DNA of 64,000 nucleotides from Haliclystus octoradiatus. Lineage: Eukaryota > Cnidaria > Staurozoa > Stauromedusae > Haliclystidae. The notes under the pieces were generated by a model. The model worked only from the letters and a program-made list of their open reading frames with translations. It did no database searches and was not told the DNA's origin. Location: positions 2,672,724 to 2,736,723 of the forward strand of contig OU744453.1 of NCBI GenBank assembly GCA_916610825.1, written 5' to 3'. The position numbers and the translations under genes are program-made. Of this stretch, positions 2,871 to 57,156 are shown one piece after another; the first letter of the stretch is position 1, and each line of letters begins with the position of its first letter.

Positions 2871-3041
2871 TGAATGGTAATTGGTCTGAATCCAATGTAA
2901 GTATTGGATGTAATGTTACCTGTGGTGGTGGTGTCATGGAATTGGAACGAAAATGTGATAACCCGAAACCCGATTGTAATGGTTCTCCGTGTATTGGTCC
3001 GTCTCGAATAACATCTGTTTGTGGCGTAATTCCGTGTCCAG
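2871..3041 (+). CDS. Copy A: TSP1-repeat exon a
   Basis: A 171-bp phase 1-1 exon between an AAG acceptor and a G|GTAATG donor, encoding one thrombospondin type 1 repeat of about 57 residues. The frame opens VNGNWSESN, contains CNVTCGGG (the CSxTCGxG core of TSP1), then four further cysteines, and ends IPCPG. TSP1 repeats are extracellular, disulphide-bonded adhesion modules that often carry C-mannosyl and O-fucosyl sugars. Only one of the usual two or three tryptophans remains. It has the same length as the first TSP1 exon of copy C (48313-48483), but the sequences are well diverged, so these two may not be products of the recent duplication. Confidence 0.8.
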
Positions 3042-12424: not shown

Positions 12425-12604
12425 TCAATGGTGTTTGGAGTGATTGGACAGCTATTGGATTATGCTCAGTGTCTTGTGGTGAAGGCACTCAAACCCTGCA
12501 TCGATCTTGCAATAATCCTCAACCGGAAAATGGTGGTTCAGATTGTGATTCCAGTGGAGAAGGTGATGAAAAGACAGATTCCTGCATCGGGAGTCCTTGT
12601 CCAG
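12425..12604 (+). CDS. Copy A: TSP1-repeat exon b
   Basis: A 180-bp phase 1-1 exon flanked by TTTTTTACAG and CCAG|GTATTA, encoding about 60 residues: VNGVWSDWTAIGLCSVSCGE, then TQTLHRSC, and finally SCIGSPCP. This is a textbook TSP1 repeat with the WSDW tryptophan ladder, CSVSCGEG core, arginine before the third cysteine and six cysteines. It differs from its copy C partner (48801-48980) by a single silent base, although the introns around both have drifted by several percent. Its role would be structural or adhesive in a secreted protein. Confidence 0.92.
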
Positions 12605-14000: not shown

Positions 14001-14162
14001 AATCTTATAGTGGATGGACATTTACTGAATGCACCGTGGGATGTGGTAGTGGAACTAAAAATGATACACGGTATTGTACAAGCGGGACATGCAGTGGAAA
14101 TCTGCAAGAGACTCAATCTTGCAATACTCACGGATGTACATACAGCGTAACTACTGTATTCG
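14001..14162 (+). CDS. Copy A: TSP1-repeat exon c
   Basis: A 162-bp phase 1-1 exon. I place the start after TTTCTTTAAG rather than after the AG ten bases later, because only this choice joins exon b in phase 1. The frame reads ESYSGWTFTECTVGCGSGTK, then RYCTSGTC, and ends SCNTHGCTYSVTTVF. It has the TSP1 tryptophan and CTVGCGSG core. The donor is G|GTAAAT. Compared with copy C it has nine amino-acid changes and six silent ones, concentrated at the C-terminal edge. Confidence 0.85.
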
Positions 14163-15831: not shown

Positions 15832-15998
15832 GGGCACATGAAGACGCAAAACTTGAATGTCCAGAATCCCCTCATACACAACACAGATATCTGGCTAAAG
15901 TGAACCCTGATTCTATGCCTACTTTATTGAAAAATCAAATGATGGCAGGATATTATTATTGGGCAGATTGTGATAATGCCTATCAAACTATTCATGGG
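15832..15998 (+). CDS. Copy A: exon d, fast-evolving extracellular segment
   Basis: A 167-bp exon entering in phase 1 and leaving in phase 0, with donor GGG|GTAAGA. It encodes about 56 residues opening AHEDAKLECPESPHTQHRYL and including ADCDNAYQTIHG at the end. Two cysteines are present. I do not recognise the domain. The phase-0 exit fits the phase-0 terminal exon at 25758, across a 9.8-kb intron filled by a LINE, (TTA)n and PLE array. Compared with copy C there are nine amino-acid changes and one silent change. Confidence 0.85.
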
Positions 15999-17475: not shown

Positions 17476-19455
17476 TTGTGCAATGGGAATCATTTACATG
17501 CTGATTTAGCTGAAAGAGTCAACTGTTACCATGAAACTTTATCTTATTTTCTTGACAAACATGCTCCATTAAAATCAAGGACAGTAGTCATACAACCTAG
17601 ACAACCATCGTTTGATGAAAAAGTAGTTAAGCTAAAGAGAATTCGGAGAAAACATTAAAGAAAATGGCTTAATACCAGGGCATAAGAGGATCATATGGAC
17701 TTTAAGAAAGCGAGGAATGTATTCACAAATCCTCTTAAATCTGAAAAGTGTAGAAATTTATCTCTTATTATAGACAAAGTGACCGGAGATCAAAAGAAAT
17801 TAATTAAAATTATCTCAGATGTAACAGGTGTTAAAAAGTGTCATCCCTTGCCTGATTATAGCAGTCCAACAGCATTGGCTAATGATTTCGGCAAATTCTT
17901 TATACGTAAGATTGATACCATACAAGAGAAGATTGATCTCATCTGTGAGAATGAATCCATTAATCACTCCCAATACTCGATCACAAATCAACAAAATGTA
18001 TTACTATCTAACTTCAAACCATTGACAGAAGAGGAAGTCAAGACAATAATATGTAATTACCCAGGTAAAAGCTGCTGGTTTGACCAAGTTCAAACATGGT
18101 TAGTTATCAAATCCTTGGATATACTACTTCCAACCATCACAGCATAGATCAACCTATCTCTAACAAATGGATGTTTTCCTGATGACTGGAAATGCCCCAT
18201 CATTGCACCCAATCTGAAGAAACCAGGACTTGATTTAATATTTAACAATTTTCATCCCATTAGCAATTTATCATTCATCTCGAAGCTAACGGAAAGTGCT
18301 GCTGCCTCGCAATTATCAATTCACAATGAATCCAACAAGTTGCTTCTACCATATGCATCTGCTTACCGGAGATTCCACAGTACGGAAACTGTACTTTTGA
18401 AGGTACAACCTGATTTGGTTCAAGCTATGGACAGTCAGAATATAACTTTGTTAGTAATGCTAGATCTGAGTGCTGCATTTGATACAGTCTCGCAAGAGAT
18501 ATTATCTTTATCTTTAGAAAATCAATTTGGAATGTATGGAAGCGTTCTCACGTGTATTACATCTTACATCCATAACCGACGACAGAAAGTATATGTCGAT
18601 GAAAATTTTTGGGAGTCAATCAAAGTTAAATGTGGTGTGCCTCAAGGTAGCTGTCTCGGCCAACTGCTTTTCATTATGTATATCAGCTCTTTGTATGATG
18701 TGATTAACAAACACCTTCCATCTGTACATGGCTATGCAGACGACCATCAATTATATTTGTCATTCAAACCTGACAATGACTTTACTACAACCAGTGTCAA
18801 ATTGATGGAGGATTGTGTTAGAGACATAAGAGCTAGGATGCTCTCAAAACGACTCATGGTAAACGACAAAAAAACTGAGATTAGGTTGGTTGGCACTCAT
18901 AATCAGCTATCAAAGGTATCTTCTATAGATGGAATAAAAATTGGCTGCGATGTGATTGCACCTATCAGCTCTGTAAAGAACTTGGGTGTTCAACAAGATA
19001 ATAACCTGAAACTACGTAAGCACGCTTCATCGATTTGCTGCAAGTCATATTATCAATTGTATAAGATAAAGGGTATCAGGAAATATCTAACTTCAAAAAC
19101 AACAAACATTTTAATCCATGCGTTTATAAGATCTAATCTGGACCACTGTAACTCTCTCCTGCATGGCATACCAAATCATCTAATTCATAAATTACAGCAC
19201 GTACAGAATGCTGCCGCACGACTAATTACAAACTCTCAAAAATTTGAACATATTACTTCGGTGTGGATAGAGCTTCATTTGCTGCCAGTGAAGTTCAGAA
19301 TTATGTTCAAAATTGCAAATCTAACTTATAAATGCCTAACAGATGTGGCACCTACATATTTGCAAGATATGATAAGCTACTATAAGCCGAAAAGAGCACT
19401 TAGATCCAATGCATCTTTGTTATTGAACATCCCCCAGTTAACTGCAAAATATTAG
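17476..19455 (+). pseudogene. LINE copy A: linker and reverse transcriptase, broken
   Basis: The linker has LDKHAPLKSRTVVIQPRQPS and a basic stretch. The polymerase carries LDLSAAFDTVSQEILS (palm A), CGVPQGSCLGQLLF (palm B) and HGYADDHQLYLSF with the catalytic YADD intact. The C-terminal domain has LIHAFIRSNLDHCNSLLHG and LQHVQNAAARLIT. Stops at about 17656 and 18147 break the frame, but the polymerase part is uninterrupted for 371 residues. Compared with copy C, palm B carries Q in place of P after SCLG. Confidence 0.88.
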
Positions 19456-19657
19456 GAACTCGCTCATTTAATTTTTCTGATCCATGTATATGGAATGATT
19501 CACCGTTAGTTATAAAGCGTTCAAATAATCTTGAGCAATTTAAAGCATTGCTCAAGACTCATTATTATAGGTTAGCATACAGCATGTAGTTAACTGTTTT
19601 TTAAACATTGTAAAGTCCGTGGAATATTATATTGATATAGTAAAGGACTCAAATAAA

Positions 19658-20666
<1,009 letters not shown>

Positions 20667-20779
20667 ATAAAATAATGTTATCTGATAGCAGTTGAGATAG
20701 TGCTCAATGTCATTTGACAGAGCGGTGAATAATAATAATGAAATGAAGTCAAAGACTAAACATTCTTTTACTGTTACTA

Positions 20780-21150
20780 AAGTTTCTTGTTTTATCTGCG
20801 GGTAGAAATGCCTTCGATGATGTTTTGATTTTATTAATGTCCTTCTTTAACTGGCGTTGGAATTGGTCATTTACGTACCTAAATTGGATGTTCTTTGTCA
20901 TCTTCATTAAGTCAGATTCGAAGCCTTCCAGTTCGCTGATTTGCGGCGGGCAATTTCTTGATTTGAATCCGAAATCCTCCTTAATTGGATTTTCTTCTTC
21001 TCCGTCTGTTTCGCTCTTCTGAAAGAAAAATGCTTTCCATCGCATCCTTTTGATAACGCTTTCTATTTTAGCAATAAGTTGAATTAAATATGTCTTCCTA
21101 GGTGGTACTGGTATATTTTTCATTGAATAGTTGAATGTTGTTTTTTCCAT
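20780..21150 (-). pseudogene. PLE: N-terminal ORF fragment
   Basis: It starts MEKTTFNYSMKNIPVPPRK like the full copy and follows it to ADKTRNF, about 120 residues. The sequence then jumps directly into the terminal repeat at a shared agtttct heptamer. One conspicuous difference from the full copy is T for A after PPRK. Non-functional remnant of the downstream unit of the array. Confidence 0.9.
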
Positions 21151-21310
21151 GTTTTTCTGCAGTGAGATTATAGTGCTCTACCGGGTTGAAGCAGGAGCGT
21201 TTATATAATAAAATAATAAAATAAAATAATGTTATCTGATAGCAGTTGAGATAGTGCTCAATGTCATTTGACAGAGCGGTGAATAATAATAATGAAATGA
21301 AGTCAAAGAC

Positions 21311-21554: not shown

Positions 21555-23699
21555 TTAAGTTTTTGTCTCTTTAAAATTTGTTAAATAATATTTTTTTTCG
21601 TGCCTACACTTTGAAATAAGTTCAGATCTTTTGTTTAACAGGTCTTTATCCGCACATATGATATGGTATTTCTCTACCAAACATAGGTGGCATCTTTTGG
21701 ATGTGTTGCTGTACGCTCTGCCGGTTGCCAAAGGTGTCCATTTTATTGTATAATCTATTTCTTTGCCTTTCAGTTCCCAGATATACTTTGATAGTTGTGT
21801 ATTCGATTTACTTTTTTCGTGTCTAAACGTCGAGGTGTGCTGCGTGTAGCGTGTTTTGAATGTTCCCTCTGTGACGCCGATATAATTTTTTCCTTCTGCG
21901 TCATTTGCTGTAGTGACGTTTGCATTGTAAATAAGGCTTGTTGCTAGGCAGTTGTTGTTGAATGGGCAAGCTTCCTTTTTTCTACAGTTACATAATGAAG
22001 TGGTGTTAGTGGTGTTGTTTTCGAAGTTGTTGGTTATTTTTTTATTGTGATTTTTTATTATTGTGTCCATGTTGCTGGTGCAGCTGTAGCTTACTTTGAT
22101 GAAGTTGAAATTAAATATTTTATGAAGTTGATGACTTTTAGGGAAATGTTTTCTGATAAGATTTAGGAATGTTCGCCCAACATTAGTTCTGACGCTTTTG
22201 TTATAAGGCGGGTTAAACCAAATAGTCTTTCTGCCTCGCTTTCTTTTGTTCTTGTTAGATCGAGGGAGGCGTGGCTTGAATGATAAGTTGGCTTGGTGGC
22301 CGCTTGCTTTCAGAGCGTCTTCATACAATTGTTTCGATTTTTCGAAAATCGAACTGTTAGTTGATAGATCGGAGATGCGTTGGTTGATTGCAGTAGGTAT
22401 TTGTTTTAATATTATGGGTGGATGGTTGGATTTTGTGTTAATGTAGAGGGGCTGGTCGTTTGGTTTTCTGTATGGTTGGTAAGAGTTATTAGTCAAATTG
22501 AAAGTTATATCCAGGTAGTCGACTGTCTTTAGATTGGTTTTTGTGGTGATTTTGAGGTCAAATTCTTTGAACAATTTAATCAGTTTTTTCCTGCATCTTT
22601 CTACTTGTGGGCCTGACTTGTTTTTCATTACTGCTAGACCGTCGTCTCGATAAAGGCCTACACCATTTTCGCCATAAATTTTATTCAATTTTTCTAGAAT
22701 AAATAGGCCAACCAATTCACATACTTCCGCCCCGTTATGGCTCCCCATTGTCACGTCGAATAGATTCTCGTTGTCTTTCTTTGTCCACGCAGAACCCGAA
22801 TTGAAAAGGACAGACTTCCTTGCGTGCATGATAATTTTTACGTCATTTTCTGTGATCGGTGTGAAACTTTTGGCGAAATTAATGGCTTGCGTTAATAATT
22901 TTTCAGATATTGTGGGATAAAAATTTACAATGTCAAAAACCATAAAAGATAACATATGTTTGTTCTCCAATGATTTAAACCAATCTATGACGGATGAGGA
23001 ATTTCTCCATTGGTTGACTCTTATTTGTTGCTTAACCTTAACAATGATTTTTTCTATAATATTTTTACTTACAATGCCCATTTCACTTTTTGCCGGATTT
23101 ATTAATCGGCATGTAGGATTTTGTTGAAAGTTCTCTTTGTGATCCTTAATGGTAATAAATGCTTCTTGCTGTGCTATAATTTCTGTTCTGTTATCAATTT
23201 TTAGTTGCTTGGCGATATCTCTCGCTTCCTTATTTATCCTATTTACTGTGTTCTTATTTGCCTTCTTGTATGTAGCGGTCACATTATCGTGTAATAGCTT
23301 TTCATGTTGTTGTGTGCCTACCTCGTAGAAGTTTCTTGTTTTATCTGCGGGTATAAATGCCTTCGATGATGTTTTGATTTTATTAATGTCCTTCTTTAAC
23401 TGGCGTTGGAATTGGTCATTTACGTACCTAAATTGGATGTTCTTTGTCATCTTCATTAAGTCAGATTCGAAGCCTTCCAGTTCGCTGATTTGCGGCGGGC
23501 AATTTCTTGATTTGAATCCGAAATCCTCCTTAATTGGATTTTCTTCTTCTCCGTCTGTTTCGCTCTTCTGAAAGAAAAATGCTTTCCATCGCATCCTTTT
23601 GATAACGCTTTCTAGTTTAGCAATAAGTTGAATTAAATATGCCTTCCTAGGTGGTACTGGTATATTTTTCATTGAATAGTTGAATGTTGTTTTTTCCAT
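21555..23699 (-). CDS. PLE polyprotein: reverse transcriptase with C-terminal GIY-YIG endonuclease
   Basis: An uninterrupted 714-residue ORF with ATG at 23699, the full length expected for an endonuclease-bearing PLE. Around residues 250-262 lies the palm motif FDIVNFYPTIS. The active-site motif LYRDDGLAV is near residue 350, the YRDDG form seen in PLE polymerases. A Cys motif CNCRKKEACPFNNNC is near 567-582, and the GIY-YIG block KNYIGVTEGTFKTRY near 600, followed by H-rich and YIWELKG segments. The GIY-YIG part nicks target DNA; the polymerase copies element RNA there. No stop or frameshift is seen, so it may be active. It lacks host-like codon patterns and sits antisense to gene A in its last intron. 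Confidence 0.93.
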   Translation of the reverse strand: MEKTTFNYSMKNIPVPPRKAYLIQLIAKLESVIKRMRWKAFFFQKSETDGEEENPIKEDFGFKSRNCPPQISELEGFESDLMKMTKNIQFRYVNDQFQRQLKKDINKIKTSSKAFIPADKTRNFYEVGTQQHEKLLHDNVTATYKKANKNTVNRINKEARDIAKQLKIDNRTEIIAQQEAFITIKDHKENFQQNPTCRLINPAKSEMGIVSKNIIEKIIVKVKQQIRVNQWRNSSSVIDWFKSLENKHMLSFMVFDIVNFYPTISEKLLTQAINFAKSFTPITENDVKIIMHARKSVLFNSGSAWTKKDNENLFDVTMGSHNGAEVCELVGLFILEKLNKIYGENGVGLYRDDGLAVMKNKSGPQVERCRKKLIKLFKEFDLKITTKTNLKTVDYLDITFNLTNNSYQPYRKPNDQPLYINTKSNHPPIILKQIPTAINQRISDLSTNSSIFEKSKQLYEDALKASGHQANLSFKPRLPRSNKNKRKRGRKTIWFNPPYNKSVRTNVGRTFLNLIRKHFPKSHQLHKIFNFNFIKVSYSCTSNMDTIIKNHNKKITNNFENNTTNTTSLCNCRKKEACPFNNNCLATSLIYNANVTTANDAEGKNYIGVTEGTFKTRYTQHTSTFRHEKSKSNTQLSKYIWELKGKEIDYTIKWTPLATGRAYSNTSKRCHLCLVEKYHIICADKDLLNKRSELISKCRHEKKYYLTNFKETKT

Positions 23700-23859
23700 G
23701 TTTTTCTGCAGTGAGATTATAGTGCTCTACCGGGTTGAAGCAGGAGCGTTTATATAATAAAATAATAAAATAAAATAATGTTATCTGATAGCAGTTGAGA
23801 TAGTGCTCAATGTCATTTGACAGAGCGGTGAATAATAATAATGAAATGAAGTCAAAGAC

Positions 23860-24485: not shown

Positions 24486-24506
24486 CATTGCATTGTAATT
24501 TGCATG

Positions 24507-25166
<660 letters not shown>

Positions 25167-25757
25167 ACGATTCAGACTTTTCAGAAACCAAATGCAGAAT
25201 AATATAAAAATGATTGACTCCGAAATCGGAATTGTGAGTCAAATACAATCATTCTCCGGATCCAGAATAACCTCAGACAAACTCATGCTAAAAGGTCCGA
25301 TAGAGGGTTAGTTTATCAATCCAAAATTAAAGAAACATTGAAAGACGAAAAAGAAAAATAACATCATCAAAAATACCCAGCCAGCCAAACTTTCTATTAA
25401 AATGTCCAGACAATCTTCAACTTTGGTATGCTTGTTAAAAAATTGCCAGGATTTCCTTCTTTGTAGTTCATCTCCTTTTGAAATTTGGATAATCTTTCTA
25501 GTTTGACTCCGAAATTTTAGCATCCTATATTGACAATAATGGTACCCAGGGAGTCACACGGAAATCGTTAAAATTTACTAGCCAATTCGCAAAGTGGTTT
25601 ATTTTTTGCTTCCCTCACAGTAACTTTGATGTTAATAGAATGCTATACAGTCCGCATTAATAAGTTCAGTATATCGCATTTTTCAAATAACATACCTTTA
25701 AATTAACTAAAACAATTTAAATTGTTAATAATATCTTTTATTTTGTCGTATATATAG

Positions 25758-25874
25758 GAACAATGTGGTTGTGGTACAATGCGGGCATTTTACATTTACT
25801 GTAATTACGGAGGTGGATGCGCAGCTGGATGTGCTTCAAAGAGTAGTAATATTCGTTCTATTTGTGAATATTAG
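25758..25874 (+). CDS. Copy A: terminal exon, Cys-rich C-terminal module
   Basis: A phase-0 exon of 39 codons including the stop, after a TATATATAG acceptor. It starts EQCGCGTMRAFYIYC and ends RSICEY plus TAG. Six cysteines occur in 38 residues, suggesting a small disulphide-tied tail. The Cys, the EQCGCG start, GGC, SKS and SICEY are shared with copies B and C, while most other positions differ, always by amino-acid-changing substitutions. One extra Gly codon is present relative to B and C. It joins exon d (15998) in phase 0. No known domain recognised. Confidence 0.85.
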   Translation, partial: EQCGCGTMRAFYIYCNYGGGCAAGCASKSSNIRSICEY

Positions 25875-30327: not shown

Positions 30328-30485
30328 TGTTGTGTTTGATTATAACAAGGTAAAGAACTAAGACAACGACTACACTCTTTGAGTAACAAATAAGTATTGA
30401 GTATATTTAATATTAGCATACAGGATATGTGCATAAGCAATGTTGCCTAGCAACTGATTATAATACGTATTGTTAGAATACAACA
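30328..30485 (-). repeat. 3' LTR of the Ty3/gypsy element
   Basis: 158 bp, starting tgttgtgtttgattataaca and ending gttagaatacaaca on the + strand. It matches 34770-34927 except for an A/G difference in gagta(a/g)caaa. Very short for an LTR, and recent given the near identity. Confidence 0.95.
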
Positions 30486-30610
30486 TACACCCGCTCTGAT
30501 TAACGTTATATTTATGAATAAATGTATTGTATTTTATTGTATTGTGATTGAATAATAAGATTATAAGATTACTAAAGATAACTTGAAATTAACGTTAATC
30601 ACTAAATATA

Positions 30611-33600
30611 CTATTTATGATATACAATAAAGTCCTTTAAATGAGATGGTATGTTGTTTCTAGAAGCTCGAGTTGGTCTTTTTTGTTTTGCTTCATTGGC
30701 TTCAGGCTGTACAGTAGGGTAAATAATATGTTCCTCTGGTGGTGAATAGTAAGGTCGAATGTCTCGTGGATGCCGACGAATAATTCCGAAGTTTTTTGTT
30801 CTAATGTCATAACAATGATTACCAACATATTGTTGAACGATGACTGGTTTTTTTGACCAAGGAGACATTCCCTTTCGTGGATTGAATATTCTGGTAAGTA
30901 CTTGTTGTCCTTTTGTGTATGATTTCTTATTTGAATTTGATGATGTCGGAGTAGTATAGTTGTTTGTAGAATCATCGATAATGCTTGTATTATTCTTTTG
31001 AGTAGATGTAGTTGATGATGTAAGTGTTGAGCTTCTGTTAACAATGACTTCATGTGGTGAACGAAAATTACGATTAAACTGTCGTTGGCCAGGTGATTTT
31101 CCGTCATTGCCGTTAGGCGTAGCTAAATAATTGATCAAAAGTGAGCGGATTCCTTCTTTCCAAGGTTTCTTGGCTCGTGTAAATGCTTGAATGCCGTTCT
31201 TTAAATATCTATTGAATCTCTCAATTAACCCGTTGCTCTCTGGATGGTACGGTATTGTATGAATATGACATATGTCATGCGATTGCAGATAATGTTCAAA
31301 AACATCTGAAATAAACTGCGGTCCGTTATCGCTTACCAAGTCTTGTGGTAGACCAAAGATTGAAAATGTCTCATCCAACCAATTTATAACTGTGTTGCTA
31401 TTAATGTTTGTTGTTGGTAGTAGACTTACATATTTAGTGGTGTAGTCAATTAGAGCTATGATGTATTGCTCAGATTTCGGTGCTACGAAGAATGGACCAG
31501 TAATGTCAATTGCTAGTTTTGTCCAAGGCGTGACTGGTGGAGGTACTTTTTTGTCGGCTGTAATGTTTCGTTTTGGGAGGCTTTTTGATGTTCCTTGACA
31601 TCCATCACAGTGCTTGACGTATGTTTCTGTGTCTTTGTCCATGCCAGGCCACCAGTATGTTGATCGTAATTTCTGTTTCAAACGGACGATGCCAGGATGA
31701 CCAGTGTGTGCTAGACTAAGAATGTGTCTTTGGAGTGATGATGGTATTACTACTTTATTATCTCGTAGGATGATGTTTGTGCCGTGTTGAGTGCGTACAT
31801 CTAGCTCGTCTCGTATACGATGTAGACTTGATGAGAATGGATTATCTTTTATCTGGCGTAGTGAAGGCCATTGTGTAGTAATGTAGTTTGAGATAACTTG
31901 ATAGCTGTCATCGTTTTTGGCGCTGGCTGCAATGTCTTCGAGACTGATACCTTCTGTGATGTACATAATGTCGATTGATGTAGCTGAATATGACGTAGTT
32001 GCTATGGTAGCGTCCGATATTTTTGTTGTTGGTAGTCTTGAAAAACCATCTGCAGGATTTTCCTTGCCAGGCTTGTATTGAAACGTATAGTTAAAACACT
32101 GTAGACGCTCAGACCATCGAATGAATTTTGATGATTTTCGTTTGTTTGATGGCATAAGTAATGTCTTGAGTGGCTGATGATCAGATTGTAATGTAAATTT
32201 ATGCCCAAGTAAATATTTTTCAAAATGTTCACATGCCCATAATACTCCTAGTGCTTCCCTCTCATTAGTAGCATAATTTCGTTCACTAGTGCTAAGAGCA
32301 TGAGAAGCAAATGCAATTGGTACTTCTTTTGAATTTTGAATTTGTGTGAGAACTGCACCAAGACCAATGTCGGATGCATCTGTAGTGAGTATTGTAGCTG
32401 CATACGGGTCGAATAAACGAAGACTAACCATTGAAGATAGAGCTTTTCTAATATCGTTAGTAGCAGTTTGTTGATCATCTGTCCATATCCATTTGACATC
32501 TTTGCGTAGTAATTTGTAAAGAGATTCTAGTCTAGTAGCAGCGTTTGGTATATATTCTCTAAAGTAGTTCACTACACCCAAAAATGATTGTAATTGTTTT
32601 TTATTTTCAGGATCAGGCATGTTTGAAATTGCAGTATAGCGTTCTGGATCTGGTTGAATGCTGTTGTTTGAGATCCGACGTCCAAGAAATGAAATAGATT
32701 GCTGATTAAAGATGCACTTCTTTGGATTGAGTCTGAAATCGTTATCATTAAGTGCTTTTAATACTTGATGTAAAATGTTATCATGCTCTTGAATATTCTT
32801 TGCATAGATTAGAATGTCGTCAATATAAGATACACAACCTGGAATATTTGCCAAAGCTCTTTCAACACATGCTTGGAATGCTGATGCTGCATCTTTTAAC
32901 CCCATAGGCAAACGTTTGTATTGATATAAGCCAAGTGGTGTGATAGATGCAGTGAGTGGACGACTTTCTTCGGCTAACTCGATGTGATAATATGCTTTAG
33001 ATAAGTCTAGCTTTGTGAAGTGAGTAGAATCTTTTAATTTATGACATAAATCGCTCATGTTAGGTAAAGGATGGCGTGTTGGGATGATTTGTTCATTTAG
33101 ACTTGTTAAATCTGCAGTTATTCTTACAGATCCGTCAGGCTTCCAGACAGGAACTATACAATGTGCCCATTCTGATTTGTCGATTTTCTCCCATATCCCT
33201 GTTTTTACCATGTTGTTGATTTCTTGTTTTACTAATTCTTCTTTAGCCAGTGGAATTGTTCTTAATTTGTTTGCATTTGGTTTGTAATTGTCTCTTAGAA
33301 GAATAGTATGTCTGTACTCAGGAAATTTACCAATTTCAGTCTTTTGTAAATTTGAGAATGGCTTTAGAAATTTTTCTGAGTCTTTGATTGAGTTTATAGT
33401 GCCGGTCTTTCCGTCTAGACAAAGACCTAATGCTCGAATGGCATTTTGACCAATAATTGAATGTTGCTTATTGTCAATTATGTAAATGTCAATGTTGTTT
33501 TTATGTCCTGCAATAGTAATTGGACAATTTATTATTCCTTTTATACCAATGATCGGTGTACCATCATAATTGAGTAGATTGGCTTTTGGTTTTTGCAATG

Positions 33601-34648
33601 GTATCTGATCTTGTAGGAATTTGCAGTAGATGTCATGGCTGATTATTGTAGCACATGCACCAGTGTCGATCATAGCTGTGATTTGCGTTGATTTATTGCC
33701 ATGGTGAATTTCCATTGTAGTATTCCATGAATAAATGTTGTTTACAGTCTGAGAGACATCATCAATGGCTGATTCTTGCTGTGTAGTAGATGACTCCTTT
33801 GTAGTTTCGGTGAATTTGATGATACTTACCTTTTTATCATTCTTGTTTGATTTTTTGCAGACTTTGGCAAAATGTCCTGTTGATCCACAGCTATTGCATA
33901 TTGCCTCTTTGGCTGGGCAATCATTTCGGCCGTTTTCGTGACGTTTGTAGCCACAAAACCAACAATTGTCTGTTGTAGTCGATTGTTTCTGTGATTGATT
34001 GTTCTTTGTTTTGGATGCGAATACCTTCTTTGTTTGCTTCACCGCTTGTATATTGCTTGCGTGATTTGTATTTGTGGCTTGTAGTTTTACCTGTTCTTTA
34101 CGTGCTGCTTCTTCAGATTGCGATATATTTAAAAAGGATTCAAATTCAATTTTGGTTTCCCGTAGAAGTCTTGTTTGTGTAGATTTTGAATGAACTCCTG
34201 CTGCTAATAATATCGCTAACACATAGTCCTCTTTTTCTTCCAACTTTATTTTTCGACAGAAATTTCTAAGTTCTGAAACAAATTCAGCAATAGTTTCTGA
34301 TTTGTGTTGCTTTCGTGTGAATAATTCTGTTGCTGATCGAATTTCACAGCCTTTTTCTTCGAATATAGATGCTGCTGCTTTCTTTATAGAATCAAAACTC
34401 TGTCCTTGTATATTTGATAAGGTTGAATTGCCTTCTGCCAATCGCATACCTTCGGTACCTAGCAAACTTCTAAAAAATTGATTTTGAACATCTCCAAATA
34501 GTTGCTTGTTTTCTGACAAACCGTGGTTATATATTGCGATGTAGTCCTCGACTTGTCGTAGCCAACGTTCCCAGTTTGGTCTTTCATCTGTTGGATGTTC
34601 TAGATATGGTGGTGGTAATCTGATTGGTATACTTTTTAACTCTGCCAT
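30611..34648 (-). CDS. Gag-pol polyprotein of the Ty3/gypsy element
   Basis: About 1345 residues from ATG at 34648 (MAELKSIPIRLPPPYL); the frame is open further upstream into the LTR, but this Met begins the gag-like sequence. Domains in order: gag; two zinc knuckles near residues 230-262 (the second CNSCGSTGHFAKVC); aspartic protease DTGACATII near 325; reverse transcriptase with LDLSKAYYHIEL and YIDDILIYA near 605; RNase H with TDASDIGLGAVL near 753; integrase with an HHCC finger near 980-1016 and the D,D-x-E residues in IDITGPF, VSDNGPQF and ESNGLIERF. No stops are seen, so it may be autonomous. Confidence 0.93.
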   Translation of the reverse strand: MAELKSIPIRLPPPYLEHPTDERPNWERWLRQVEDYIAIYNHGLSENKQLFGDVQNQFFRSLLGTEGMRLAEGNSTLSNIQGQSFDSIKKAAASIFEEKGCEIRSATELFTRKQHKSETIAEFVSELRNFCRKIKLEEKEDYVLAILLAAGVHSKSTQTRLLRETKIEFESFLNISQSEEAARKEQVKLQATNTNHASNIQAVKQTKKVFASKTKNNQSQKQSTTTDNCWFCGYKRHENGRNDCPAKEAICNSCGSTGHFAKVCKKSNKNDKKVSIIKFTETTKESSTTQQESAIDDVSQTVNNIYSWNTTMEIHHGNKSTQITAMIDTGACATIISHDIYCKFLQDQIPLQKPKANLLNYDGTPIIGIKGIINCPITIAGHKNNIDIYIIDNKQHSIIGQNAIRALGLCLDGKTGTINSIKDSEKFLKPFSNLQKTEIGKFPEYRHTILLRDNYKPNANKLRTIPLAKEELVKQEINNMVKTGIWEKIDKSEWAHCIVPVWKPDGSVRITADLTSLNEQIIPTRHPLPNMSDLCHKLKDSTHFTKLDLSKAYYHIELAEESRPLTASITPLGLYQYKRLPMGLKDAASAFQACVERALANIPGCVSYIDDILIYAKNIQEHDNILHQVLKALNDNDFRLNPKKCIFNQQSISFLGRRISNNSIQPDPERYTAISNMPDPENKKQLQSFLGVVNYFREYIPNAATRLESLYKLLRKDVKWIWTDDQQTATNDIRKALSSMVSLRLFDPYAATILTTDASDIGLGAVLTQIQNSKEVPIAFASHALSTSERNYATNEREALGVLWACEHFEKYLLGHKFTLQSDHQPLKTLLMPSNKRKSSKFIRWSERLQCFNYTFQYKPGKENPADGFSRLPTTKISDATIATTSYSATSIDIMYITEGISLEDIAASAKNDDSYQVISNYITTQWPSLRQIKDNPFSSSLHRIRDELDVRTQHGTNIILRDNKVVIPSSLQRHILSLAHTGHPGIVRLKQKLRSTYWWPGMDKDTETYVKHCDGCQGTSKSLPKRNITADKKVPPPVTPWTKLAIDITGPFFVAPKSEQYIIALIDYTTKYVSLLPTTNINSNTVINWLDETFSIFGLPQDLVSDNGPQFISDVFEHYLQSHDICHIHTIPYHPESNGLIERFNRYLKNGIQAFTRAKKPWKEGIRSLLINYLATPNGNDGKSPGQRQFNRNFRSPHEVIVNRSSTLTSSTTSTQKNNTSIIDDSTNNYTTPTSSNSNKKSYTKGQQVLTRIFNPRKGMSPWSKKPVIVQQYVGNHCYDIRTKNFGIIRRHPRDIRPYYSPPEEHIIYPTVQPEANEAKQKRPTRASRNNIPSHLKDFIVYHK

Positions 34649-34755
34649 GACGTGTGACGAATAAAGAGTTAAGAAGAAAAATTTAATGAATGTATATGTA
34701 TCATTAAATAATTGAATGTATATATGTATAATATGAATAAAATAATAAAATTTAT

Positions 34756-34769
34756 CCTCGTCGCCAATT
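34756..34769 (-). other. Putative tRNA primer-binding site
   Basis: Directly inside the 5' LTR the minus strand reads aattggcgacgagg. The TGGCGACGAGG string is a common primer-binding sequence in metazoan Mag-like gypsy elements, where a host tRNA 3' end primes minus-strand DNA. Confidence 0.6.
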
Positions 34770-34927
34770 TGTTGTGTTTGATTATAACAAGGTAAAGAAC
34801 TAAGACAACGACTACACTCTTTGAGTAGCAAATAAGTATTGAGTATATTTAATATTAGCATACAGGATATGTGCATAAGCAATGTTGCCTAGCAACTGAT
34901 TATAATACGTATTGTTAGAATACAACA
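34770..34927 (-). repeat. 5' LTR of the Ty3/gypsy element
   Basis: 158 bp, identical to the 3' LTR apart from one base. It should hold the promoter for the minus-strand element RNA. The flanking bases on the outer side do not repeat those outside the 3' LTR. Confidence 0.95.
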
Positions 34928-36255
34928 ATACATTGATACGAATTTAAAAGTAAGTTATTATAATATTGTAAATTAGTAGAAATAATGATAAGGATAATAG
35001 TATTAATAATATAATATAATTTTTATTTTATTATTTTATTATTATTATTATTATTTTTTTTTTTCGTTTTTTTTCTTCGTTTTTTGAACGAGATAAGTTC
35101 CATAATTATGGTCTCTCAAATGAGAGCGAGACATGCCAATGACTAGTAGTATCACTGAATGTAAAACCTGGACGTGTATGAATACAAATTAAAAAGTTTT
35201 CATGAAAATGAAACCAGTTTTGATAAGTTAGAAGCAACCTTTCAAATTGACTAATTATGGTTGACTAACTTTCCAACCACCGGTGATCATTTTACATTTT
35301 TCATTTTTCAAGTCTAGATTTATCTATTTTGTCTAAATAAAACGCTGTAACTCCAGTATTTCGGTTGAAGTCTCACTTATTTGATGACGGTTTTGATATG
35401 TTGGTAAAGTGACCAACCATCAAAATTCGGCAAATCAGAGTAAGCGGGACTTGGAGCTAGTCAAGTATTTCGGTTATTATCGGTTTTTCGTTGAAATTGG
35501 ATTTTTCTACTCCTTCGACTCTGTTTCTCCAGATCGATTTGCTCTTTTGTTCTTTATATCTAAATAAATTGCACGTGAATTAACACTGCTTTTGTAAATA
35601 ATACATTAGTTGAGAAATACGAAATTATATGCGCTAAAGAATCACTGCTCAACAATCAGAGAACATAGCAATCAGAGATCAGGACTCATCAGCAAGTTAG
35701 TGCCAGCACGAAAATAAATCTTATTTGTCTAATTTCCATAAACAGAGAACATAGCAATATCAACTACGGCATAGCGGAACAACAATCATACTGCAGAATA
35801 ACGCAAATAGAAATAATAACAGCGCAGCATTGGTTTTGACAAATTTAACTATATTAAACTATGAATTATATAAAACCCTAAATGTATATTGGAGACAAAT
35901 TGTATTGCTTGAGATAATAATTTCAAATAGATATACGTTTTGAATGATACACCTCGATTGTAATTAACGTTTTCGTTAAGTTAGAATGTTAAAGATGTTA
36001 ACGTTAAAATGCTCATGTTTAGAATAAACGTTGTTTCAAAATATATTAACTTGATGTTGTTTTCTGCCGCTGAACGCGAGTTAACCAGACGCGGGAGCAG
36101 AAGTGTGAAATAAGAAAGAACAATGGAATTTTATCTGTGTTTTTTATCCGGCATTTTACCTGTGTCCGGGTTTTAGATCTGCCGGAAGGAAAGACAGTTA
36201 GAAAGACCAAGCCAAAGAATAAAGAATCGATAAAACAATGATTTAAAAAACTTAC
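34928..36255. other. AT-rich spacer with a T-rich low-complexity run
   Basis: 35020-35080 holds short (TTA)n and T-runs. No gene, RNA or recognisable element is seen in the rest. Confidence 0.6.
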
Positions 36256-38044: not shown

Positions 38045-40500
<2,456 letters not shown>

Positions 40501-41145: not shown

Positions 41146-41259
41146 GAACAATGTGGTTGTGGTATGAATAGCGCATTTGTCGTTTTCTGTTCTACTGGAG
41201 GATGCGGAGGTACATGTCGTTCAAAGAGTGGACTCTATTATTCTATTTGTGAATATTAG
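41146..41259 (+). CDS. Copy B: terminal exon, Cys-rich C-terminal module
   Basis: 38 codons including TAG after a TATATATAG acceptor, phase 0. It starts EQCGCGMNSAFVVFC and ends YYSICEY. The splice acceptor and frame are intact, but no exons d or TSP1 belong to copy B, so it is either an orphan exon or an alternative last exon for the upstream gene A. It differs from copy C at 10 of 37 codons, all by replacement. Confidence 0.75.
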   Translation, partial: EQCGCGMNSAFVVFCSTGGCGGTCRSKSGLYYSICEY

Positions 41260-45174: not shown

Positions 45175-45522
45175 ATGGATCTGACCATGATTGGAAAGAT
45201 TATTTCTATTATAATTGTATTTTGTGTTGCACAAAATGGCAGCATTTCCGATCAATGTGATGATAATCTATTATCTTATAGAGGGAGAATGCTGAATGGA
45301 TCAGTTGCAACAGATGTAAATCCAATGGCCGTGCATAACGCGTCTAACATTTTCCTTTGCGATTTTATTTGTAAAAGTACTGATGGTTGTGTTTCAATCA
45401 ATTTCAATTCATCTGGAATTGGCATCGGTGTCTGCAAACTGTTCAACATGACTTCAACAAGAAAATTTCTGAAAGACGGACTAATTCAGAATATCAACTC
45501 AAGCGTTATCCTAAAACTACCG
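45175..45522 (+). CDS. Copy C: first exon, signal peptide and PAN/apple-like domain
   Basis: The ATG at 45175 (context gaaATGG) gives MDLTMIGKIISIIIVFCVAQ, a clear hydrophobic signal peptide, then a mature domain from about ISDQC. The spacing DQC … LCDFICKSTDGCVSINF … GVCKLF fits a PAN/apple domain: helix with two Cys, then CVSINF-type strand and a fifth Cys; N-glycosylation sites (NGS, NAS, NMT) support secretion. The donor is CCG|GTAAGA at 45522, phase 0. A sixth Cys would come from a following exon (compare 1501-1525). An in-frame TTG lies upstream, but ATG at 45175 is preferred. Confidence 0.82.
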
Positions 45523-48312
45523 GTAAGAACAAATCATAGTTTCAATTGTATTTTAAATAATACTTTAGAGTTTATTATGGGTATTCCTAATTTGATATGT
45601 TTTATGGTATAAAACATAATTATTTCCATGTGAAAAAGATTTCTTCAGTATCAGACACTTTTCACATTTTTCTCATGACGCAGCAAGAATAAAATATTCA
45701 CTCATGGTTACACAAAGAAGATAAACAACAAAAAATGTTTCATAATTAATTTATGAAATGAAAAATTCGAAGTTTTTATTTTTCTGTAAATTTAATGTCG
45801 TGTATTAAAATAGCAATGAGGAGTAAAATAATTTGATTTCGACATTCTATATTTTCAAACGTAAAACAAATCTTCGAATTTTGATGATATGACATTACGT
45901 AAACTCGAATTTCTTGTGCGTTAAATTAGATTATTATTAAAAGAGATTTCGAACTCTGTTATGATCTTAACTAATATAGAATGTTTATAATTCCTAATGA
46001 TTGATATTGTAAAGAAGTAACTCGAGAATAAATAAAAGACTCGATATGAGGTCATGATGTGAGAATAGTTTCTATCAGACCTATTATCCTTACCAATTAC
46101 GTTGCATAAACGTTGCGTTTCCTACGGTAGACATCTAATTGTAATCTTTGGATTTGCTTACTACCATGAAGAATGAAGATAGCCGAATCAAAAACATGAA
46201 ATATTTGCTACTTTATCTGATGAATATAAGATAATTTTGGATAAGGGAGGAATACAAAAACAACAATACGGATATCTAAACAATCTAATGCAGCGTTTAA
46301 CCTATATAGCTCTATAACTTGTCGAGGAGAAAATGGAACAGATACGAAAGAGGAACTCTTAAATGAGTTGTTCTACCTCTTAATATTTTTCTTGAATATA
46401 ACTAATGTGATGAATAACCAAATAACCATCAAACATATTATTTTACATGACATTGCAAATTATCAGAAATTAAAGTTCTATTATCTACCTCAGCCAACGA
46501 CTTCCGTAAGTAAATTTAAAAATTAAAAATAGGAGTTTGAATCAAGATCGAAATGGAGTAAATAGGCTATTTTCTCAGGATTTCTGTATTGTATTTGAGA
46601 CATAAAGCCACGAAGACAGCACTCTGACGTAAGCGCTGATTTAAAAGAGCTTCTCGTTTTCAGGTGTATATGTCCTTCTAAAAATACTGTTTGAGTATCG
46701 TCTTGATTAGATTTAACACATCTTCGTTGTCATCCCCCAAAGCTCTATTGGGACAACCTCCATCGAAATGTAGTGGAAGTTAACCCCACAATGATGTATT
46801 TACACAAGATGAATATTTTAATGTCAAAATCAATGCTTTATTTTCTAGATCGTTTGCAATCTAACTTCAATAAGTAAGTTAACAAATTTGAGCTCTGACA
46901 TCATTATCACTATCATCATCATAATTTTAACTTAAAAGGAGAATACTGACCGGGGACCATTGCGCGCTCTACCAACCAATTTGTAAGTCTTCAACCCAAA
47001 AGAAAGCCTTGAAAAGGCTGCCATGCGTATATATACAGACAAATTTTACAGACAGCTATATATTATGTAATTTGGTCCCATTATTTTATCAAGTTCTGGA
47101 ATAAAATGTGTTGTTTATACTATGTGATCAAGGGAATAGAATTTTATATGCAGAAACGGTTTTTGACTGACTTCGTTGAAGCTAAAAGGTTTTGCATGCA
47201 GTAGCATATCTAAATTAAAAACACATTAAATCAGATTGCTTTCAATATTACAGTTTGCTGGAGGTTATTTTTTGGCGATGCAGAAATAATCACGTTGCTT
47301 TAACAATGTAGGCTCATGTCGCAATTCACAGGGGAATTAATAACGAAGTTTAAGGATTGTTCCATACTTCGATTCTGATTATCAAGAAAAATTGGTGTGT
47401 TTCTCGCAAATCAAGAAACCTTTTTATTTAATCCCTGTCCATCCCAACACACACTGTGCTATAAAACAATTCCAATCCTTATTCCTGTTTTTGCGTGACG
47501 GTAATTCCATCAAAACTTGATAGCTAACAGAGCAACGACAGTTAATATTTAAGGACACCAAGGTTTAACGATAAATAATACCAAAATTATACTACATTGA
47601 TAATTCTAGAACTATGCGAATCGGAGTTTCTGTAAGGTATAAATCATGATTCCAGAAAATTGATTAGTGAATAAGTTACGGGCGACGGATTTTCGATTGT
47701 TCTTCTTGTGAATAATAACTTGTCACATATTTTGGATTAACTCCTTCAAAACAATAGATTTAAGGCGAGGCCAAGCAACGTCTGGAAAAGAGTGTTTGAA
47801 AATATTAATCAATTTTCAAAGTTCACGCTCAATGTTTCCTGGTCTGTATTCTCAAGTTAAGAATCTATCAAACTGCAAACTTTGCAAAAAGTTCAGACTA
47901 AATCACAAACCTGATACAGTGCCAGTAAGAAAACTTATGATATTATTAGATTTCAGTTTTATTCCATATTGAGACGAATTGAAGGAAAATAATGCCTAAA
48001 TATATATTCAGTATTATTTATTTATTCCTTCTATTCAATAGATTTCAATTGATCTGATTCTAAAAGGTATAATTCTAAAGGTATAATTCTACAGCCATAA
48101 TATTTTTTTTCCTGTAGAATCTATATTTTGGAATAACTTTCTGTTTTTGATCAGTATTCAAGAAATGTAATTAATGTAATGAATGTCCAATCGTGAAAAT
48201 TTATATAGAATATTCTGGATATTCTAATATTTTATTTCTCACTGCTCAACTCTTTTCTGAAATATAAAATTAAAGAGGAGTAGGATATTTATAATTTTCT
48301 TTACTTCTGTAG
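45523..48312. other. Copy C intron 1
   Basis: 2.8 kb. The segment near 45880-45980 aligns with the copy A mini-exon region, but the acceptor AG and much of the mini-exon are missing. 46560-46660 resembles 62690-62800, a dispersed repeat. At 46949-46985 there is a tRNA-like string on the minus strand. No other exon could be identified. Confidence 0.6.
46949..46985 (-). mobile_element. tRNA-like fragment, possible SINE head
   Basis: The minus strand reads attggttggtagagcgcgca and then atggtccccggt, like a tRNA A-box region (TTGGTAGAGCGC). No complete tRNA can be folded and no clear B box follows. Probably a SINE remnant. Confidence 0.3.
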
Positions 48313-48483
48313 CTGAAGGTTTTTGGTCAAATTGGATAAATTCAACAAATGACTGTAGCACCACATGTGGTTTTGGTTTTAAGACTCAAACAAGAACATG
48401 TTTGATGCCAGAATGCAATGGAGGAATCTGTACAGGAATAAGTGAAAAATCAGTTAGCTGTAATTACGGTGATTGCCCAGCAG
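48313..48483 (+). CDS. Copy C: TSP1-repeat exon a'
   Basis: A 171-bp phase 1-1 exon (acceptor CTTCTGTAG, donor CAG|GTATAG). It reads AEGFWSNWINSTNDCSTTCG, then KTQTRTC, and ends SCNYGDCPA. It has WSNW, CSTTCGFG and the R before the third Cys, all diagnostic of TSP1, plus an NST glycosylation site and a seventh cysteine. Only 317 bp separate it from exon b. The recent duplication shared with copy A starts right after it. Confidence 0.88.
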
Positions 48484-48800: not shown

Positions 48801-48980
48801 TTAATGGTGTTTGGAGTGATTGGACAGCTATTGGATTATGCTCAGTGTCTTGTGGTGAAGGCACTCAAACCCTGCATCGATCTTGCAATAATCCTCAACC
48901 GGAAAATGGTGGTTCAGATTGTGATTCCAGTGGAGAAGGTGATGAAAAGACAGATTCCTGCATCGGGAGTCCTTGTCCAG
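48801..48980 (+). CDS. Copy C: TSP1-repeat exon b
   Basis: 180 bp, phase 1-1, acceptor TTTCTTACAG, donor CCAG|GTATTA. It encodes VNGVWSDWTAIGLCSVSCGE through SCIGSPCP. The only difference from copy A exon b is a silent third-position change in the first codon. This freeze contrasts with exons c, d and the terminal exon and points to strong constraint or gene conversion. Confidence 0.93.
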
Positions 48981-50413: not shown

Positions 50414-50575
50414 AATCTTACAGTGAATGGACCTTTACTGAATGCACCGTGAGATGTGGGAGTGGAACTAAAAATGGTACACGGTATTGTACAAGCAGGA
50501 CTTGCAGTGGAAATCTACAAGAGACTGAATCTTGCAATATTCACGGATGCACATACAGCTTTACTACTTCAGGAG
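50414..50575 (+). CDS. Copy C: TSP1-repeat exon c
   Basis: 162 bp, phase 1-1, starting after TTTCTTTAAG. It reads ESYSEWTFTECTVRCGSGTK, RYCTSRTC and ends HGCTYSFTTSG. The donor GGAG|GTAAGT is stronger than in copy A. The SEWT and CTVRCGSG motifs are those of TSP1. Relative to copy A, changes include G to E beside the tryptophan and G to R in the CTVxCG core. Confidence 0.88.
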
Positions 50576-52232: not shown

Positions 52233-52399
52233 CGGTACATGAAGGAGCAAAACTTGGATGTCCAGTATCCCCTCATACACAACACAGATACCTGGCTAGA
52301 GTGAACCCTGATTCTATGCCTACTTTATTGAAAAATCAAATGGCGCCAGGATATTTTTATTGGGCAGATTGTGATAATGCCTATCAAACTATTCATGGG
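52233..52399 (+). CDS. Copy C: exon d, fast-evolving extracellular segment
   Basis: 167 bp, phase 1 in and phase 0 out, donor GGG|GTAAGA. It reads AVHEGAKLGCPVSPHTQHRY and ends ADCDNAYQTIHG. Nine of about 56 residues differ from copy A, with only one silent change, while the intron just downstream differs by about 4 percent. The unchanged centre (VNPDSMPTLLKNQM) suggests a conserved core with variable edges. Domain unknown. Confidence 0.87.
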
Positions 52400-53910: not shown

Positions 53911-54644
53911 TTTAGCTGAAAGAGTCAACTGTAACCATGAAACTTTATCTTATTTTCTTGACAAACATGCTCCATTAAAATCAAGGACAGTAGTCATACA
54001 ACCTAGACAACCATCGTTTGATGAAAAAGTAGTTAAGCTAAAGAGAATTCGGAGAAAGCATTAAAGAAAATGGCTTAATACCAGGGCATAAGAGGATCAT
54101 ATGGACTTCAATAAAGCAAGGAATGTATTCACAAATCCTCTTAAATCTGTCTGAAAAGTGTAGATATTTATCTCTTATTATAGACAAAGTGGCCGGAGAT
54201 CAAAAGAAATTAATCAAAATTATCTCAGATCTAACAGGTGTTAAAAATTGTCATCCCTTGCCTGATTATAGCAGTCCAACAGCATTGGCTATTGATTTCG
54301 GCAAATCCTTTATACGTAAGATTGATACCATACAAGAGAAGATTGATCTCATCTGTGAGAATGAATCCATTAATCACTCCCAATACTCGATCACAAATCA
54401 ACAAAATGTATTACTATCTAGCTTCAAACCATTGACAGAAGAGGAAGTCAAGAAAATAATATGTAATTACCCAGGTAAAAGCTGCTGGTTTGACCCAGTT
54501 CCAACATGGTTAGTTATCAAATCCTTGGATATACTACTTAAAACCATCACAGCATAGATCAACCTATCTCTAACAAATGGATGTTTTCCTGATAACTGGA
54601 AATGCCCCATCATTGCACCCAATCTGAAGAAACCAGGACTTGAT

Positions 54645-55850
54645 TTGATATTTTACAATTTTCGTCCCATTAGCAATTTATCATTCATCTCGAAGCTAAC
54701 GGAAAGTGCTGCTGTTTTGCAATTATCAATTCACAATGAATCCAACAAGTTGCTTCTACCGTATGCATCTGCTTACAGGAGATTCCACAGTACGGAAACT
54801 GCACTTTTGAAGGTACAAACTGATTTGGTTCAAGCTATGGACAGTCAGAATATAACTTTGTTAGTAATGCTAGATCTGAGTGCTGCATTTGATACAGTCT
54901 CGCAAGAGATATTATCTTTATCTTTAGAATATCCTTTTTTAATGTATGGAAGCGTTCTCACGTGGATTAAATCTTACATCCATAACCGACGACAGAAAGT
55001 ATATGTTGATGAACATTTTTCGGAGTCAATCAAAGTTAAATGTGGTGTGCCTCAAGGTAGCTGTCTCGGCCCACTGCTTTTCATTATGTATATCAGCTCT
55101 TTGTATGATGTGATTAAGAAACACATTCCATCTGTACATGGCTATGCAGACGACCATCAATTATATTTGTCATTCAAACCTGACAATGACTTTACTACAA
55201 CCAGTGTCAAATTGATGGAGGATTGTGTTAGAGACATAAGAGCTTGGATGCTCTCAAAACGACTCATGGTAAACGACAAAAAAACTGAGATTAGGTTGGT
55301 TGGCACTCATAATCAGCTATCAAAGGTATCTTCTATAGATGGAATAAAAATTGACTGTGATGTGATTGCACCTATCAGCCCTGTAAAGAACTTGGGTGTT
55401 CAACAAGATAATAACCTGAAACTACGTAAGCACGTTTCATCGATTTGCTACAAGTCATATTATCAATTGTATAAGATAAAGTGTATCAGGAAATATCTAA
55501 CTTCAAAAACAACAAACATTTTAATCCATGCATTTATAAGATCTAGTCTGGACCACTGTAACTCTCTCCTGCATGGCATACCAAATCATCTAATTCATAA
55601 ATTACAGCACGTACAGAATGCTGCCGCACGACTAATTACAAACTCTCAAAAATTTGAACATATTACTCCGGTGTGGATAGAGCTTCATTGGCCGTCAGTG
55701 AAGTTCAGAATTATGTTCAAAATTGCAGTTCTAACTTCTAAATGCCTAACAGATGAGCCACCTACATATTTGCAAGATTTGATAAGCTACTATAAGCCGA
55801 AAAGACGCGTAGATCCAATGCATCTTTGCTATTGGACATCCCCAAGTTAA
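54645..55850 (+). pseudogene. LINE copy C: reverse transcriptase and C-terminal domain
   Basis: 401 open residues: FRPISNLSFISKLTESAAVL (fingers), LDLSAAFDTVSQEILS, CGVPQGSCLGPLLF, HGYADDHQLYLSF (catalytic YADD intact), LIHAFIRSSLDHCNSLLHG and LQHVQNAAARLIT. The upstream linker is separated by a stop at 54557, so no full ORF2 is made. Confidence 0.88.
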
Positions 55851-56054: not shown

Positions 56055-56461
<407 letters not shown>

Positions 56462-57042: not shown

Positions 57043-57156
57043 GAACAATGTGGTTGTGGTATGAATGACGCATTTGTCGTTTACTGTTATACTGGAGGAT
57101 GCGCAGCTATGTGTAGTTCAAAGAGTGCAACTTCGTATTCTATTTGTGAATATTAG
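57043..57156 (+). CDS. Copy C: terminal exon, Cys-rich C-terminal module
   Basis: 38 codons including TAG, phase 0, after TATATATAG. It starts EQCGCGMNDAFVVYC and ends ATSYSICEY. Six cysteines. Joined to exon d it completes a secreted protein of roughly 380 residues: signal peptide, PAN, three TSP1 repeats, exon d segment and this tail. Every codon difference from copies A and B is amino-acid changing. Confidence 0.85.
   Translation, partial: EQCGCGMNDAFVVYCYTGGCAAMCSSKSATSYSICEY

Follow-up and report, generated by a model that had tools for sequence, protein, structure and literature searches.

Evidence for diversifying selection and sequence exchange at the cysteine-rich terminal exon of a predicted PAN–TSP1 gene family in Haliclystus octoradiatus

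The genome of the staurozoan Haliclystus octoradiatus (assembly jrHalOcto1.1) carries on chromosome 8 (C10) a short terminal exon, here called the tail, whose three copies A, B and C within the window, the stretch of 64,000 nucleotides that was analysed (C10:2672724-2736723), raise the question of why their codons differ only in ways that change the protein. COX1 of this genome is 99% identical to a Myostaurida entry with the mnemonic HALAN, presumably Haliclystus antarcticus. A sequence-only reading of the window proposed that strong diversifying selection acts on a disulphide-stabilised tail. A recount agrees exactly with its figures for B and C, which differ at 10 codons (15 bases), and with those for A and C, which differ at 13 codons plus one codon indel; neither pair shows a silent difference, nor do A and B, which differ at 16 codons. 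The sequence after the stop codon, said to have drifted by about 8% between B and C, differs at 16 of 194 sites (8.2%). The B–C pair is weak evidence when taken alone: codons altered at more than one base entail about 2.5 silent steps, and the NG86 values are 0.157 for dN and 0.118 for dS (calculated with copy 2428731, which has the same tail as C). Once all copies and their flanks are used, the pattern exceeds chance.

The tail C exon is predicted to be the last coding exon of a PAN–TSP1 gene that belongs to a tandem family. The model of gene C has seven frame-compatible exons joined by predicted splicing (1167 bases, 388 residues, 34 cysteines). The first encodes a signal and PAN-like region and the second is a micro-exon of 25 bp; one exon for each of three TSP1 domains, a linking exon and finally the tail come after it (Table 1). 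Exon 1 is an open frame with the donor gtaaga; its hydrophobic N-terminus is a probable signal peptide, and the family proteins are probably secreted and look adhesive. PAN_1 (PF00024) matches exon 1 alone with an E value of 0.002 and 18.4 bits, under the cut-off of 21.4, and the PAN model is unlisted at E 0.1 against the full gene C protein, in which TSP_1 (PF00090) is found in three stretches with 56.5 bits against a cut-off of 21.6. The micro-exon is the top frame-compatible candidate by a crude splice-site score, is also open in a paralogue near C10:2.417 Mb and may contribute the last PAN cysteine. The linking exon of gene C encodes the opening part of a cysteine-rich domain at the C-terminus. 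It has a hotspot of five codons preceding YW, and its region is identical to that of gene A at 275 of 298 bases. Exon searches detected no linking, TSP1 or PAN exon between tails A and B, and tail B may serve gene A as an alternative last exon.

Table 1. Predicted family exons in the window (positions counted from the first nucleotide of the window).
Feature	Position	Strand	Basis and remarks
Gene A upstream TSP1-like exon	2871..3041	+	open frame, splice sites
Gene A TSP1 domain b	12425..12604	+	open frame, splice sites
Gene A TSP1 domain c	14001..14162	+	open frame, splice sites
Gene A linking exon	15832..15998	+	splice sites, alignment to gene C region
Tail A, gene A terminal exon	25758..25874	+	one codon extra
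Tail B terminal exon	41146..41259	+	intact, conserved acceptor
Gene C exon 1	45175..45522	+	start codon, hydrophobic N-terminus, PAN-like; ends in phase 0
Gene C micro-exon	46849..46873	+	25 bp, phase 0 to 1, peptide IVCNLTSI; prediction
Gene C TSP1 domain a	48313..48483	+	splice sites, frame, TSP_1 match
Gene C TSP1 domain b	48801..48980	+	splice sites, frame; TSP_1 E 3.1e-15
Gene C TSP1 domain c	50414..50575	+	open frame, splice sites
Gene C linking exon	52233..52399	+	phase 1 to 0; splice sites, alignment to gene A
Tail C terminal exon	57043..57156	+	37 codons + stop

Protein searches of the host genome find at least 20 tail copies, 17 on C10, two on C4 and one on C2, and the C10 cluster extends over 0.63 Mb from 2.43 to 3.06 Mb. 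An earlier protein search had found 17 of the 20 tails and a weak match at C10 17.5 Mb, which is excluded from the family count. Linking-exon matches on C10 number 12, one of them partial. Judged by position, no linking exon was detected for five of the 17 cluster tails, which brings alternative terminal exons into consideration. The 17 tail sequences compared comprise 12 distinct ones, and 11 distinct ones were taken into the selection tests, from which tail 2741354 was left out owing to its stop codon; the 41-residue tail variants at C10:2665129, 2750250 and 2893792 were left out of the comparisons. The linking-exon sequences used are seven of 13 matches, from two windows plus the studied window and one further region. 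At C10:2664623-2665251, 2749744-2750372 and 2893286-2893914, a second, divergent type of linking exon is followed by a 41-residue tail variant. Some family copies may be non-functional, namely 2741354, the C2 copy, the C4 pair and the gene of tail 2642234, which has a partial linking exon immediately after TSP1b and may be defective. The C2 copy (C2:25095443) is an orphan with no acceptor and no upstream exons detected. Its exon and 3' sequence match C10 copies with as much as 95.8% identity, a similarity that begins at about the exon edge and stops near +885; in view of this, and as neither poly-A nor an upstream exon was seen, a retrocopy origin is rejected.

In the larger set, two of the regularities of the window hold in part. 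The six cysteines, EQCGCG, SKS and SICEY, reported as preserved, are all present in the three window copies but not across the whole set: both C4 copies have lost Cys15 and Cys20 together, Cys20 is replaced by Trp in the C2 orphan, and EQCGCD and SKI or PKS occur in some copies. Even so, five of the six tail cysteines are kept in at least nine of the 11 copies. Similarly, the absence of silent change does not extend to every copy; among the 11 distinct copies, silent differences occur in 18 of 1232 same-amino-acid codon pairs.

The exon diverges much faster than its surroundings. In seven close copies, the thirds of the exon differ on average by 16.9, 27.9 and 14.2%, whereas 12 flanking windows differ by 2.9–9.2%, and individual flank regions only 0.5–1% different lie next to exons that differ by 18–25%. 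Of the 111 exon sites, 43 are variable, and in the 200-base flanks 62 of 346 ungapped columns are (Fisher p 1.4e-5). The stop codon in 2741354 and the missing acceptor of the C2 copy could be taken to point to duplicates that decay under relaxed constraint. This explanation is very improbable, since relaxation cannot make an exon evolve faster than its own flanks, and 13 of the 37 tail codons are invariant in every copy with data there.

Site models locate the excess in a subset of codons. For the 11 distinct tails, M2a is favoured over M1a with a 2dL of 57.0 (p 4e-13), an omega of 15 for 30% of codons and 11 codons with P of 0.99 or more; the selected codons are 9, 12, 14, 16, 17, 21, 23, 25, 29, 30 and 31. 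Seven further runs give a 2dL of 45.0–90.1: one on the subset of seven copies, one with a star tree, two on the subset with trees from its 5' and its 3' flanks, and three with random trees. These models are our own implementation, calibrated by simulation under the fitted null, in which 2dL has a median of 0.67, a 95% point of 6.1 and a maximum of 9.5 (n=32 completed runs, with slower ones missing). The proposed test by dN/dS in a larger set thus gives a divided answer: the ratio is above 1 at the selected sites, whereas the whole-exon omega of 1.36 is not significantly above 1 (p 0.33).

The signal extends past the tail, to which it had been ascribed, since the linking exon shares a hotspot of this kind. 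Six distinct linking sequences give a 2dL of 29.6 for M2a over M1a (p 3.8e-7), with codons 36-40, the hotspot, plus 3 and 47 selected; the divergent link 2664623 is excluded from this ML test and retained in pairwise sums. The replacement-to-silent ratio from pairwise NG86 sums is 1.88 for the tail (55 pairs) and 1.31 for the linking exon, and it is 0.59, 0.64, 0.54 and 0.43 for TSP1a, TSP1b, TSP1c and PAN, respectively. The ML omega values of these control exons are 0.27, 0.51, 0.56 and 0.39 in the same order, and the gain of M2a is not significant in any of them (three TSP1a sequences, a weak control, 13 TSP1b, seven TSP1c and seven PAN; for TSP1a, TSP1b and PAN, the ML tests exclude sequences of unequal length). 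Purifying selection acts on the TSP1 and PAN exons.

With branch lengths fixed from the flanks, the whole-exon omega is 4.7–6.2, and it drops to 1.3–1.8 when the silent rate of the exon is freed. With a single codon class on this flank clock, a pure increase in rate fits about as well as selection, but the single-class model is poor, as two codon classes improve lnL by 54 to 79. At the variable codons (40%), silent change runs at 4.8–6.5 times and replacement at 28–57 times the flank rate; on three flank trees, the silent excess has a 2dL of 5.8, 5.3 and 8.4, and the excess of replacement over silent change has a 2dL of 12.0, 17.3 and 6.2. Exon-wide hypermutation is rejected by this replacement excess. 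The raised silent rate at the variable codons implies that, besides selection, whole codons have been replaced through multi-base change, older codon variants or exchange.

Exchange between copies is clear. Over the final 200 bases of the intron, copy B and copy 2870658 differ at one of 202 sites, but after the stop they differ by 10.8%; flank trees conflict among copies, and none of 1000 shuffles is as low as the PHI value for exon plus flanks. Within the exon, PHI on codon columns is not significant (p 0.10–0.15, 20 informative columns), and exchange is therefore shown for the exon with its flanks and not for the exon alone. Adjacent differences number 205 per 458 in the exon against 102 per 1130 in the flanks; generic multi-base mutation is set aside, given the few adjacent differences of the flanks, and multi-base change restricted to the exon remains compatible.

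A change of the tail with no positive selection or very little of it, brought about by hypermutation local to certain codons, by mutation of several bases at once or by conversion from divergent donors, would account for the silent excess, the adjacent differences and the exchange described above, and models in which the silent rate rises at variable codons are ahead of uniform-silent selection by about 15 AIC units (1241.8 against 1257.0 for 11 copies, 887.5 against 902.2 for seven). In these rising-silent models, omega is still 3.6 for 11 copies and 2.5 for seven (above 1 only at p about 0.05), and a common omega above 1 is supported for the 11 copies (lnL -617.89 against -623.52, 1 df). The replacement excess on all three flank trees, the retention of the cysteines and the confinement of selected sites to one face of the predicted hairpin (see below) also speak against it, as do the identical tails of five near-identical duplicate pairs with flanks 0–0.5% different, a weak test at that age. 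Change of this kind without selection is thus quite unlikely. The C4 pair does not diversify in the tail, with two of 114 tail sites different, both replacements, against 47 of 939 flank sites (5.0%). Diversifying selection on the tail, supported by the 11 distinct copies, the flank clock, the control exons and the null simulations, is very likely; the original reading stands in this respect and has to be widened by exchange and whole-codon replacement, which also shape the pattern.

The linking exon and the tail are predicted to form a small C-terminal cysteine-rich domain with eight cysteines in copy C. AlphaFold models the tail alone as a hairpin with strands 9-16 and 19-26 (pLDDT 77, pTM 0.39), in which Cys15 and Cys20, the cysteines that the C4 copies lost jointly, are cross-strand neighbours and a predicted disulphide pair. 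Six of eight positions on one hairpin face are selected against one of eight on the other (p 0.04), and none of the six inner positions of that other face is (p 0.0097). The selected residues thus appear to alternate along the predicted hairpin, as if one face were changing, which is only a lead, given the low pTM and a model that omits the linking exon. No named relative of the linking and tail domain was found in Pfam, where the best match is RPAP3_C (E 0.009, under the cut-off, in five of six members), in the PDB (best E 0.13) or in the protein database, where two candidates arose and none reached E 10; the latter search requires shared 5-residue words, and distant relatives may escape it.

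How animals without adaptive immunity maintain molecular diversity is a long-standing question, and the genes of Staurozoa have received little study. A role of the tail in recognition or defence would be consistent with its variability, and selection together with a recognition function is, with modest confidence, the best explanation as a whole. The family has expanded by repeated duplication with exchange between copies, and selection has then very likely favoured amino-acid change at about one-third of the codons of the C-terminal domain. The favoured changes lie in the loops between cysteines and on one predicted hairpin face, whereas constraint has persisted on most cysteines, on SICEY at the C-terminus and on the PAN and TSP1 parts. 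The constant PAN–TSP1 arm might dock to matrix, mucus or a cell surface and the variable face might bind partners that themselves change quickly, most likely microbial or other non-self surfaces, so that the cluster would be a germline-encoded recognition repertoire. Non-self recognition is judged the most likely of the functions. A tentative extension, in which a fixed PAN–TSP1 arm carries a variable hairpin face and exchange and alternative terminal exons widen the diversity of such a cnidarian repertoire, is possible; if true, alternative terminal exons would let one gene display more than one tail. The outcome is a concrete gene cluster in which individual codons and a predicted binding face are singled out, all testable.

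Selection may also be real and serve another function. Gamete and self recognition within a species are known to involve surface or secreted proteins that are diversified and encoded in clusters, but no membrane anchor is seen by eye in the predicted product, and such a role is unlikely. Similarly unlikely would be a venom or nematocyst component driven by an arms race against prey or predators. Cnidarians are venomous according to literature abstracts, and conotoxin precursors, as described in the available text of PMC3823881, come from duplicated genes under positive selection and have a small cysteine scaffold with site-specific cysteine codons and hypervariable loops. The tails recall them in all these respects, their cysteine codons being conserved and the loops hypervariable. 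The tail is, however, the end of a long predicted multi-domain PAN–TSP1 protein of 388 residues, not a small released peptide with a signal–propeptide–mature toxin layout; it follows AYQTIHG with no adjoining basic cleavage site and no evident cleavage to a free peptide, and Pfam and PDB searches show no sequence relation of the tail domain to conotoxins.

The nearest likeness of the whole protein is to cnidarian TSR (TSP1) proteins, which have been proposed as pattern-recognition molecules in the available text of PMC5446238 and include properdin-like TSR-only members; several TSP1 domains and many members are shared features. The Haliclystus protein differs in its additional PAN-like N-terminal exon and its C-terminal linking and tail domain, an architecture that does not appear in the accessible part of that survey of anthozoans. 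In the protein database, the whole gene C protein has two matches only, both TSP1 proteins, one of them named properdin-like and from fish. The diversity of the sea urchin Sp185/333 genes consists of mosaics of elements, whereas that of the Haliclystus tails arises mostly codon by codon. The available text of PMC5103432 describes these genes as clustered, duplicated and rapidly diversified immune genes amid repeats, and the likeness concerns genome layout only, the sequences being no part of the comparison. A literature search in sources without most subscription journals and bioRxiv preprints found no published account of the Haliclystus tail family.

The window is also rich in repeats. Between 163-base repeats at 30328-30489 and 34770-34932 (98.8% identical) lies an intact 1425-residue open frame (30611-34888, minus strand), which by eye we take to be a Gypsy-type gag-pol, and a 723-residue frame at 21555-23726 (minus strand), with a partial copy adjoining at 20749-21177, presumably represents a Penelope-type element. 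Upstream of each of the three tails lies one reverse-transcriptase-like frame (plus strand; 18148-19455, 38731-39663 and 54558-55850), and the regions that hold them are 93–95% alike, so that each duplication probably took the element with it. Long arrays of ATT repeats lie near the tails at about 19650-20670, 24500-25200, 40130-40500 and 56055-56450, and it is possible that they aid unequal exchange. Outside the window, C4:19929120-19948535 contains 20 TSP1-like matches at a spacing of roughly 1 kb, 14 of them with equal score.
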